This document shows, in pieces, positions 3,246-50,997 of a stretch of 52,167 nucleotides of DNA. A program made the position numbers and the translations under genes. The stretch comes from an uncultured Alphaproteobacteria bacterium (GTDB taxonomy: Bacteria > Pseudomonadota > Alphaproteobacteria > Parvibaculales > Parvibaculaceae). The notes below the pieces were generated by a model, which saw only the letters and a program-made list of their open reading frames with translations, had not been told where the DNA came from and ran no database searches. The stretch is from positions 1-52,167 of the forward strand of contig CAISYL010000048.1 of assembly GCA_903889655.1 (NCBI GenBank). The letters are read 5' to 3'. The first letter of the stretch is position 1, and every line of letters starts with the position of its first letter.

Positions 3246-4160
3246 TCAGCGTCCGGCGAGACGGGCCCGGTCGGCCTTGGCGCGGCCGGCGATGAAATCC
3301 ATCGCCGCGCGGACCGGAGGCGTATCCTTGAGATCGGGATGGGTGAGGAGCCAGATGTCGGTGGCGCTGTAGAGCTTTTCCGGCGAGATGCGCAAAAGCT
3401 GCGGATAGGCATCGCCCGTCAGGCAGGTGAGCGCCGAGATACCGACGCCGGCGAGCACCGCATAGGCTGTGTCGATCTGGGAGGAGAAACGCAGATGCGT
3501 CGGCGCGTTGCGGGTTACATGTGCACTCCAGCGGGCGAGCTCCTGATTGGCGGAGGAGCCGGCGAAACCGAGAATGGTGTGACCCGCCCATTCCTCGCGT
3601 TTTGTCGGGAGCCCGTGTTTCGCCGCGTAATCCTTCGACGCATAGAAGGCGACGCCGAGGCGACCGATCTTACGGCCCACCAGATTTTCCTCACCCGGTC
3701 CGTAAAGGCGGATGACGATGTCTGCCTCGCGGCGGCGGACGCTGGCCGGCCAGGATTCGGTGACGAAGTCGAGTTCGACGCCGGGGAACTGTGTGCGGAA
3801 GCCCGGCAGATGCGGCATCAGCCAATGGGCGGTGATGCCCGGCGCGGTCGAGACGCGGACCATGCCGCGCGGTTCACCATCGTCGGCGGTCGCGGCCCGC
3901 ATCGCGCGTTCGGCGGCGATCGCCATGGGTTCGACTTCGCCGCGCAGCCGGTCGCCGGCGGCGGTCAGCGCATAGCCGGCGGGCTCGCGGATGAAGAGCT
4001 TGGTGCCGAGGGTCTTTTCGAGGGCGGCGACATGACGGCCGACGGTCGCATGGCTAAGCCCCAGCCGGCGGCCCGCCGCCGACAGGCTCTGCGCTTCCGC
4101 TACGGCAAGGAAGATGCGATAGGCATCCCAGCCGGCGCCTCCCGCTTCGTCATTGTTCAT
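3246..4160 (-). CDS. LysR-family transcriptional regulator
   Basis: This complete 304-residue LysR protein has its helix-turn-helix at about 15-60 (GLSHATVGRHVAALEKTLG) and its effector-binding domain from about 95 to the end, including READIVIRLYG. It is divergent from the nitronate-monooxygenase-like gene at 4364 across a 203-base gap, and it is followed on the same strand by the related flavoprotein gene ending at 2127. It is therefore a plausible regulator of both flavoproteins. It resembles the first LysR in the window in its N-terminal half. Confidence 0.93.
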   Translation of the reverse strand: MNNDEAGGAGWDAYRIFLAVAEAQSLSAAGRRLGLSHATVGRHVAALEKTLGTKLFIREPAGYALTAAGDRLRGEVEPMAIAAERAMRAATADDGEPRGMVRVSTAPGITAHWLMPHLPGFRTQFPGVELDFVTESWPASVRRREADIVIRLYGPGEENLVGRKIGRLGVAFYASKDYAAKHGLPTKREEWAGHTILGFAGSSANQELARWSAHVTRNAPTHLRFSSQIDTAYAVLAGVGISALTCLTGDAYPQLLRISPEKLYSATDIWLLTHPDLKDTPPVRAAMDFIAGRAKADRARLAGR

Positions 4161-47879: not shown

Positions 47880-48175
47880 TTCGGCCAAGCGGTCATACGC
47901 CGCAGCGCCGGCATCGCGCCCGCGCGCGAATATACATGGGATATCAAGCTAAACCGAAATGGGGAAGGCGCCGCAGGGGCATGCCTGCGGCATTTGTATT
48001 AGGTTCGCCTGCATTTGAATCCTGATCTCGAATATTTTACTAATCTCGTCCTTTGTATTCTTTTGACAGCGTGACTATTGCTGCCGGGAATGCCAATTGA
48101 TATAAGGACGCCGGCGTTTTTAACTTTGACTTACTCTTTGGCTGTGTTGCGGCGCGGATGATCGGCGGGGACGAT

Positions 48176-48601
48176 ATGAGCGAAAAGGCGGAACTGATCG
48201 GCATGACGGCCTCGATCGTGTCGGCATATGTCGGGCACAACAGCGTGGCGGCCGAGGAGCTTTCAGGCTTGATCCACAAGGTCTATGTGGCTCTCGTCCA
48301 GGCCGAGAGTGGCGCCGCGCCAGCCCAGACCGAACGGCTGGAGCCCGCCGTGACGGTGCGCAAGTCGATCACGCCGGATTATCTGATCTGCCTGGAAGAC
48401 GGAAAGAAATTCAAATCGCTGAAGCGCCATCTCCGGACACATTACAATTTGAGCCCGGACGAATATCGCGAGAAGTGGAATCTGCCGCGCGACTATCCGA
48501 TGGTTGCGCCGAATTACGCACAGGCGCGTTCGAAGCTCGCCAAGAAGATGGGGCTCGGCCAGAAGGGCCGCCGCACCACCACCCGCCGCGGCTCCCGATA
48601 A
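48176..48601 (+). CDS. mucR: MucR/Ros-family zinc-finger regulator
   Basis: The 141-residue protein has the Ros/MucR layout: an N-terminal helical oligomerisation part (AELIGMTASIVSAYVGHNSV) and a C2H2-type prokaryotic zinc finger in LICLEDGKKFKSLKRHLRTHYNLSPDEYREKW (pieces), with a basic tail (KGRRTTTRRGSR). MucR proteins are nucleoid-associated regulators that bind AT-rich promoters, including their own. The upstream 200 bases are notably AT-rich, fitting autoregulation. The start at 48176 follows GGGGACGAT; an ATG six codons earlier is possible. Confidence 0.93.
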   Translation: MSEKAELIGMTASIVSAYVGHNSVAAEELSGLIHKVYVALVQAESGAAPAQTERLEPAVTVRKSITPDYLICLEDGKKFKSLKRHLRTHYNLSPDEYREKWNLPRDYPMVAPNYAQARSKLAKKMGLGQKGRRTTTRRGSR

Positions 48602-49841: not shown

Positions 49842-50408
49842 TCACAGATAGCGAATGAGCATGACGACCGGTGCGATCCAGTCGGGCGCCGGCAGCGGGC
49901 GCGCCTGCGCGCCGGGATCGGGCGGGACGAGCAGATAATTTCCGTCCACTGACGAGATGAAACGGCCGAAGCCGCTTGCTTCCCCGTCGACCTCGACGAT
50001 GCAGTCGCGGCCGAGCGCGCGGGCGGCATCCTCAGGTGCGAGCCGGTCGGCGATGACGACATCGCCGGCGCAATAGGTTCCGACATTGGCGCGGAACCTC
50101 AGCGCGATCGGATTGCGGGCCGGCGCGTCGAGCATCAGCGTTTCGTCTCCCTCGGCCAGTTCCGTGTCGAAGAGGCCATTGCGACCGATCTGGCCGATGC
50201 AGGGGATATGCGCCGAGCGCGGGTTTCCCAGCAGGTCCGTCACCGCGACGCCGAGGGCGGCCGCGAATTTCTCCAGCCAGTCCGTCGAAACCGTCATGTC
50301 CGAGGTCTCCAGCCGGGAAACGGTCGCGGCGGTTGTACCGACACGGCGGGCCAGTTCGGCCTGTGTCAGGCGCCGCAATCGCCGGAAATGCCTGATCCTG
50401 GTCCGCAT
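49842..50408 (-). CDS. XRE HTH protein with degenerate S24/LexA-like domain
   Basis: The 188-residue protein has an N-terminal XRE helix-turn-helix (about 1-60, LTQAELARRVGTTAATVSRLETS) and a C-terminal S24 peptidase-like fold (PCIGQIGRNGLFD, YCAGDVVIADR, DCIVEVDG). The catalytic Ser of GDSM is absent (FRANVGTY) and the Lys position reads GFGRF, so it cannot self-cleave like LexA. It is probably a stable repressor. It is divergent from the DnaA-domain operon across an SOS-box-like sequence. Confidence 0.88.
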   Translation of the reverse strand: MRTRIRHFRRLRRLTQAELARRVGTTAATVSRLETSDMTVSTDWLEKFAAALGVAVTDLLGNPRSAHIPCIGQIGRNGLFDTELAEGDETLMLDAPARNPIALRFRANVGTYCAGDVVIADRLAPEDAARALGRDCIVEVDGEASGFGRFISSVDGNYLLVPPDPGAQARPLPAPDWIAPVVMLIRYL

Positions 50409-50488
50409 GACGTGTTCCTTCTGTTTCGAAATGGCACAGGAAATTACACAAACTTATCCCCGGTGTTTACGGAATGCGTAATTTTTCC

Positions 50489-50523
50489 ATAGGAACACAC
50501 GATTGTTCTCGTAATGTTCCTAT
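50489..50523. promoter_or_regulatory. Dyad ATAGGAACA...TGTTCCTAT enclosing an SOS box
   Basis: ATAGGAACA (50489-50497) and TGTTCCTAT (50515-50523) are a nine-base perfect inverted repeat. Inside it, GTTCTCGTAATGTTC (50505-50519) is an exact match to the alphaproteobacterial LexA box GTTC-N7-GTTC. It also contains GAACA-N6-TGTTC. It lies 34 bases upstream of the DnaA-domain gene and 80 bases upstream of the HTH-S24 gene. Confidence 0.78.
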
Positions 50524-50556
50524 AAACATCCGTCAAGCGGCTTAGGAGGGGATGAG

Positions 50557-50997
50557 ATGCAGGTTGGAATTGCGGGTCCGTTCAGCGGGTTCGGCGAAAC
50601 GAGACGGGCGGCTTTCCTGGGATTCGACGGTCATCTGACCCGGCCGACGAGGCCCATCGAGCGCCCGACGAAAGAGGAGATCGACGGCGCGGCCCGGGTC
50701 GCGCTGACGCAGGAAATCGTCGCCCGGGCCTTCGACGTGCCGGTCGGCGAGCTGCGCGCCTCCACCCGGCGCAAGGCGCAGGTCGCATTGGCGCGACAGA
50801 TCGCGATGTATCTCAGCCATGTCGCCTTCAGCCTCAGCCTTTCGGCGGTCGGACAGCATTTCGGTCGCGACCGGACCACGGCGGCCCATGCCTGTCGCCA
50901 GATGGAGGACCGCCGCGACGACCGCGATTTCGACCTGCTGCTCGATCGGCTCGAGGGCGCCATTCGCGCCATGCCGGTGACGGACATGCTGCAATGA
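50557..50997 (+). CDS. Stand-alone DnaA domain IV-like DNA-binding protein
   Basis: The 146-residue protein resembles only the C-terminal DNA-binding domain of DnaA: FDVPVGELRASTRRKAQVALARQIAMYLSHVAF (in pieces) and VGQHFGRDRTTAAHACRQM, the DnaA signature helix-turn-helix. It has no AAA+ domain. Such proteins are known in alphaproteobacteria next to DUF6456. A strong ribosome site (TTAGGAGGGG) precedes the ATG. It could compete with DnaA at boxes or bind a related site. It overlaps the DUF6456 gene by ATGA. Confidence 0.9.
   Translation: MQVGIAGPFSGFGETRRAAFLGFDGHLTRPTRPIERPTKEEIDGAARVALTQEIVARAFDVPVGELRASTRRKAQVALARQIAMYLSHVAFSLSLSAVGQHFGRDRTTAAHACRQMEDRRDDRDFDLLLDRLEGAIRAMPVTDMLQ

Follow-up and report, generated by a model that had tools for sequence, protein, structure and literature searches.

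Regulators of the gafY/gafZ/rogA type control the gene transfer agents (GTAs) of alphaproteobacteria, domesticated phages whose particles carry packaged host DNA. In the accessible portions of the published accounts, RogA is a repressor bound at the gafYZ promoter, and GafY and GafZ are the activators of the GTA cluster (PMC9632790, PMC11150451). The available text on Caulobacter describes RogA as lacking the catalytic residues of LexA and CI and GTAs as helping cells to survive DNA damage, and no link from the SOS response to GTA production was found in those same portions (PMC9632790). GafA homologs are annotated as DUF6456 in excerpts of two further papers (PMC9638019, PMC9765227). LexA is needed for RcGTA production in R. 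capsulatus, apparently via cckA (Kuchinski 2016 as cited in parts of PMC6363796 and PMC9638019). In Dinoroseobacter shibae, the predicted LexA sites include those at the GTA cluster (Dshi_2167/2168), recA, dprA, and lexA, with gafA listed under CtrA sites (PMC6473078). A literature search on LexA with GTA, gafA, or gafYZ, which covered little of the subscription literature and only parts of the sources, returned no report of a LexA site at gafYZ.

The window, meaning the whole stretch of 52,167 nucleotides analyzed here from an uncultured member of the Parvibaculaceae, carries genes that match rogA and gafY-gafZ, with identities assigned by family and synteny (Table 1). The locus shares with Caulobacter crescentus rogA-gafYZ (Gozzi 2022; Tran & Le 2024) the order of a GafY resembling DnaA domain IV and then GafZ, together with a GTA marker elsewhere in the genome; its XRE protein is a putative counterpart of the RogA repressor. 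The original prediction of a DnaA domain IV in the plus-strand flanking protein is borne out by its Pfam match. The minus-strand protein had been described as an XRE protein with an S24 domain; the XRE-type helix-turn-helix (HTH) was recovered, but the S24 label found no support in sequence searches. Pfam returned no S24 domain at E values up to 0.01, and in a PDB profile search (E up to 1) the best 60 of 65 matches cover the HTH region only. When aligned by eye, the protein has no Ser or Lys at the positions expected for the LexA catalytic residues, and a structure model built from three sequences had a pLDDT of 44.6, too low to judge the fold. RogA seems to be noncleavable. The genes had also been read as replication linked; a DnaA domain IV gene followed by a DUF6456 gene and facing a divergent XRE gene instead matches the gafY-gafZ/rogA pattern. 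A gene for a ROS/MucR family regulator lies at 48158-48601 of the window, ~1.2 kb away from where the rogA homolog ends.

Table 1. Features of the rogA-gafYZ locus, in coordinates of the window
Feature	Position	Strand	Remark
rogA homolog, predicted XRE-type HTH repressor, 188 aa	49842..50408	-	rogA match beside gafY in 33/37 family loci
Conserved core TTATCCCC (50454-50461) and near-palindrome TACGGAATGCGTA (50468-50480)	50454..50480		candidate RogA operator or core promoter
Wide dyad ATAGGAACA-N17-TGTTCCTAT enclosing the box	50489..50523		outer arm not generally conserved
SOS box GTTCTCGTAATGTTC of the gafYZ promoter, a probable LexA operator	50505..50519	+	exact GTTC-N7-GTTC direct repeat; predicted
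gafY homolog, predicted GTA activator resembling DnaA domain IV, 146 aa	50557..50997	+	PF08299, E 4.5e-19
gafZ homolog, DUF6456, 258 aa	50994..51770	+	PF20057, E 8.9e-50

The GTTC box and its neighborhood in the gafY promoter

The divergent intergenic stretch at 50409-50556 contains the GTTC-N7-GTTC box and the larger dyad that had been predicted around it, and both were confirmed in place. The dyad arms, read directly, occupy 50489-50497 and 50515-50523 and are separated by a 17-bp spacer; the 35-bp dyad is present as a single copy in the window and occurred in none of 100 shuffles, even with 3 mismatches allowed. The GTTC-N7-GTTC pattern proves nothing alone, because one match was seen in the window versus 1.39 expected and 79 of 100 shuffles contained at least one. 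The significance of the box comes from its context, namely, its intergenic place, its rank in the genome, and its recurrence in relatives. A promoter scan of 50380-50580 detected no sigma-70-like promoter around the box.

The genome to which the window belongs encodes LexA (TIGR00498, above cutoff), and the same motif stands before its recA, comM/YifB, imuA-like, imuB-like, and lexA genes, the family match of the imuA-like gene being below the cutoff. A single base separates the comM/YifB box from the gafY box. Across the 4.36-Mb genome, GTTC-N7-GTTC was counted 114 times versus 62 for the reversed pattern. When scored with a recA/comM matrix trained without the genome's own comM and recA sites, the gafY box ranks 6th among the 100 matches listed of the 114, and recA (13th) and lexA (21st) rank below it among the same 100. 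The gafY boxes with their flanks score 11.3 to 29.2, and the leave-one-out range of the recA/comM boxes is 8.2 to 32.4. Two other strong LexA-like boxes were observed in this genome, one just upstream of a TIGR04283 glycosyltransferase gene (G000:C65:14918-14932, L031) and one upstream of an open reading frame that is followed by an N6_N4_Mtase/Mrr_N gene (G000:C176:21250-21264, L038). The genome also holds a second RecA-family gene (G000:C9:9721-10680, E 1.2e-167), of which contamination (3.67%) is a possible source.

Conservation was assessed in 37 Parvibaculaceae genomes or loci with gafY, including the window's own genome (G000). The expectation that the box would recur in orthologous promoters held in part: it is present in 15/37 but absent from 22/37. 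In all 15, it lies 48 to 52 nt after the start of a conserved TTATCCCC core, and the 15 promoters carry 11 distinct boxes. Among the 35 core-bearing promoters, the best match at the box position has 0 mismatches in 15 and 3 to 6 in the other 20, with 1 or 2 mismatches in none; control windows with 0 mismatches numbered 0/420. The perfect half-sites of the 15 boxed promoters result from how the set was selected; identity is 0.47 in the spacer and 0.39 and 0.31 in the flanks. The N7 direct repeat alone is enriched in the 37 gafY promoters (17 matches in 15 genomes), other spacings from 0 to 20 or inverted orientations giving at most 2 matches. In 1,000 shuffles, a mean of 0.24 genomes had an N7 repeat, with a maximum of 4. 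A chance match was ruled out by the spacing, the place, and the shuffle controls. A quick tree built from 36 GafYZ sequences, which carries a long-branch warning, requires at least 6 changes for the box and shows it in several deep parts. Boxes are kept across the family before comM (32/35 loci) and recA (31/31 assessable loci of 34 examined, three being short of upstream sequence), and genomes without the gafY box therefore seem to have kept the same LexA specificity. Taken together, these observations indicate that GTTCTCGTAATGTTC is very probably a LexA operator. The prediction that a divergent promoter here carries a LexA site of the alphaproteobacterial type is thus supported, and the sequence makes damage-responsive control likely.

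A conserved element separate from the box occupies 50454-50480. Its core is exactly TTATCCCC in 29/37 loci and TTACCCCC in 6/37, and a near-palindrome of the form TAC-N7-GTA follows it in 19 of the 35 core-bearing loci; the GTTC box begins 24 nt past this near-palindrome. We regard the element as a candidate for either the RogA operator or the core promoter. The suggestion that two repressors compete at one site gains no support from this arrangement, in which the box and the element conserved in 35/37 promoters are distinct and only 3/15 boxed promoters (G000, G003, and G004) have the outer dyad arm (a GAAC half-site 7 to 8 nt before the box). Such competition may nevertheless occur, since the dyad arms resemble a palindrome in the lysis promoters. 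The wide dyad was ruled out as a conserved element on the same count of its outer arm. The inverted GAAC half-site and the box together span 50493-50519 of the window and, as in G003 and G004, the former is perhaps a third half-site. The Caulobacter-type GGAA-N4-TTCC repeat is absent from the window's own gafY promoter (L073). In the boxless G017 and G026, such an element (GGAATTTATTCC) occupies the box position, and another GGAA..TTCC element (GGAATGTTCC) overlaps that position in G001 and G013.

Outside the Parvibaculaceae, the gafY box is rare. Three of four loci in one genus of another family (G155, G251, and G271) carry it 51 nt past a core that reads CTATCCCC or TTATCCCC, and none was found in the stretch examined of the fourth (G272); G091, also outside the family, has a box without a core. 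In a set of 30 loci, gafY was recognizable in 20; of these, 16 lie outside the family, and 3 of the 16 are boxed. In 22 distant GafY-like loci, ten of which lack a GafZ match, the sequence before the furthest start showed no box; one reverse match lies 45 nt inside L054 of this distant set. Pattern matches also occur in L252 and in L243, which has no recognized gafY.

A second box at the hydrolase promoter of the GTA cluster

The window's own genome encodes a GTA_TIM protein (PF13547, G000:C166:21982-22878, E 1.3e-149), the marker used here for the RcGTA-type structural cluster, which was found in 33/40 genomes of the order, this one included. The GTTC-N7-GTTC matches listed for contig C166, at 26619 and 27426, both lie beyond the GTA_TIM gene. 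The former (G000:C166:26619-26633) lies within TTGACA-tGTTCCTGTTATGTTCc-TATTCT and precedes the gene for a 166-residue protein that weakly matches an endolysin PHROG (E 9.7e-07) and, below the cutoff, Hydrolase_2 (E 7.5e-05). The layout of this hydrolase promoter is the classical one for promoters blocked by LexA. The 93-residue protein encoded after the hydrolase is called holin-like on weak grounds.

A total of 31 GTA 3' loci in 30 genomes were compared, three genomes with GTA_TIM fragments (G003, G015, and G026) being left out. The lysis-promoter box is present in 16/24 loci with a hydrolase match and in 0/7 without one. TTGAC[AG] stands 0 to 2 nt before the box in 14/16; the box is reversed in G004, and in G009 the gene between box and hydrolase is presumably a transposase gene. 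A conserved gene of ~236 residues follows the GTA_TIM gene in 19/31 loci, as judged by motif, and a holin-like motif follows the hydrolase in 3/31, one of which (G018) has no hydrolase-promoter box. In total, 29 genomes could be examined at both loci: nine have both boxes, three the gafY box only, seven the lysis box only, and ten neither, a patchy distribution that provides natural controls.

The lysis promoters also contain a palindrome, TAGGA-N6-TCCTA, which was found with ≤2 mismatches of 10 in 17/24 windows scanned, compared with 37/1,558 same-size controls; the scan windows missed five loci (L192, L195, L197, L199, and L201), where similar letters are present. The palindrome occurs with or without a LexA box, as in L189, where it lies just after the box at 3405-3419. 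It resembles the Caulobacter GGAA-N4-TTCC repeat and is a possible binding site for RogA or a different repressor.

Several further observations concern the GTA loci. A GTTCAT..GGTTCA motif, which often fits GTTC-N7-GTTC, recurs in 24/31 GTA 3' loci (L175-L205) at ~7.2 to 10.4 kb in (e.g., L185:8351); it is probably the site of another regulator and a trap for LexA scans, because its composition differs from that of LexA boxes. G006, which belongs to the same genus as the genome of the window, has two GTA_TIM loci, on contigs C1 and C23 (L177 and L194). In G014, G001, G035, and G028, gafY and the GTA_TIM gene share a strand, with gafY ~40 kb upstream.

Proposed regulation of gafYZ and the lysis gene

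We consider it likely that, in many Parvibaculaceae, LexA directly controls the GTA activator, the lysis gene of the GTA, or both of them, and that RogA acts as a second lock. The scheme that we infer, comprising LexA binding, a RogA operator, induction by damage, two-lock logic, and a lysis function, would run as follows. In an undamaged cell, LexA would sit on the box and the divergently encoded RogA on the neighboring element, and both would hold gafYZ off. DNA damage would activate RecA and lead to cleavage of LexA, which would open one of the two locks; RogA, seemingly noncleavable, would remain until another signal removed it. GafY and GafZ would then switch on the GTA cluster. At the GTA 3' end, the cell wall hydrolase has a TTGACA-type promoter and would be controlled through the second LexA box in its spacer, so that lysis would be licensed by the same signal, and the palindrome beside this box may bind a second repressor. 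Counted against LexA control are the 22 family promoters that lack the gafY box, the ten of 29 genomes that lack both boxes, the rarity of the gafY box outside the family, the negative promoter scan around it, and the holin-like motif in just 3/31 loci. Something else may bind, as suggested by the GGAA..TTCC elements at or over the box position in four genomes and by the fit of the GTTCAT..GGTTCA motif to the same pattern.

A wider reading is more tentative, and we hold it at somewhat below even chances: the Parvibaculaceae GTA would be wired directly into the host SOS regulon at gafYZ and the lysis gene, damage would cause cells to package DNA and release it by lysis as a communal repair response, and RogA, perhaps at both promoters, would form an AND gate against needless suicide.

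Other explanations share part of this evidence. The box and wide dyad together could serve RogA, or else an XRE repressor of the GGAA..TTCC type, as its operator, with LexA not involved. Caulobacter RogA binds the gafYZ promoter region, which has GGAA-N4-TTCC repeats, in the accessible text of PMC9632790. Moreover, the dyad of the window is perfect and adjoins rogA; its arms (ATAGGAA/TTCCTAT) resemble those of the lysis-promoter palindrome, although its gap is wider; and GGAATTTATTCC and GGAATGTTCC mark the box position in other genomes. Yet the window's own promoter lacks the GGAA-N4-TTCC repeat, and the N6 palindrome fits gafY promoters at best with 2 mismatches, in G017 and G026 only. The N7 repeat, present by definition in every boxed promoter, is intact where spacer and flanks diverge and the outer arm is mostly missing, rogA is matched in 18/22 boxless loci too, and the box scores like the recA/comM boxes. 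We therefore judge this explanation unlikely. Still less probable, and in our estimate very improbable, is a locus that controls chromosome replication through an HdaB-like DnaA domain IV protein, with the LexA box coupling damage to initiation. Its basis is the domain match of GafY and the description of the Caulobacter gene as HdaB, as cited in PMC9632790; the adjacent DUF6456 and divergent XRE genes and the occurrence of the GTA marker across the order fit a GTA system instead, and the portions of PMC9632790 available reinterpret HdaB phenotypes as GTA effects (Gozzi et al.).

The alternative that we take most seriously, while still thinking it rather unlikely, overlaps the preferred explanation on the nature of the site: the LexA site would be genuine and have little effect on GTA output, RogA dominating and the site tuning basal gafYZ expression. 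In Caulobacter lacking four other XRE repressors, gafYZ transcripts rise and no GTA DNA band appears while RogA is present, as reported in the accessible part of PMC10688885. This result is in line with basal tuning; it also suits the two-lock scheme. The many family promoters without a box likewise agree with a minor role. Against such a role, the carriers retain perfect half-sites despite diverged spacer and flanks, with no degraded forms, and the hydrolase promoter carries a box of its own in two-thirds of the loci with a hydrolase match (16/24). Direct LexA control of the activator, the lysis gene, or both, with RogA as the second lock, is the explanation that we prefer.

Comparison with known systems

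The locus bears on what induces GTAs and on why bacteria keep them. If LexA does act directly at both the activator and the lysis gene, the sensing of damage would be tied to the release of a repair template. The arrangement departs from that of Caulobacter in several respects. The rogA homolog adjoins gafYZ divergently, whereas the corresponding Caulobacter genes, CCNA_00080 and CCNA_01111, are far apart by locus tag in the available text (PMC9632790). The gafYZ promoter adds a LexA box and is without the GGAA-N4-TTCC repeat, which we regard as a trait of the Caulobacter promoter and not as defining. In the accessible portions of Gozzi et al., no holin or endolysin homologs are reported for the Caulobacter GTA, whereas a hydrolase with weak endolysin matches follows the cluster here.

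A link between LexA and GTAs is common to R. capsulatus and D. shibae, and here the predicted sites are on the activator's own promoter and the hydrolase promoter. The effect of LexA on the R. capsulatus GTA is opposite in sign to the repression proposed here, which we count against the preferred explanation. In SOS-induced temperate prophages of the lambda type, DNA damage lifts the block on phage genes and lysis, as it would here. Compared with these, the host LexA would be the sensor in the system proposed here, and the phage-type RogA, seemingly noncleavable, would be the second lock.
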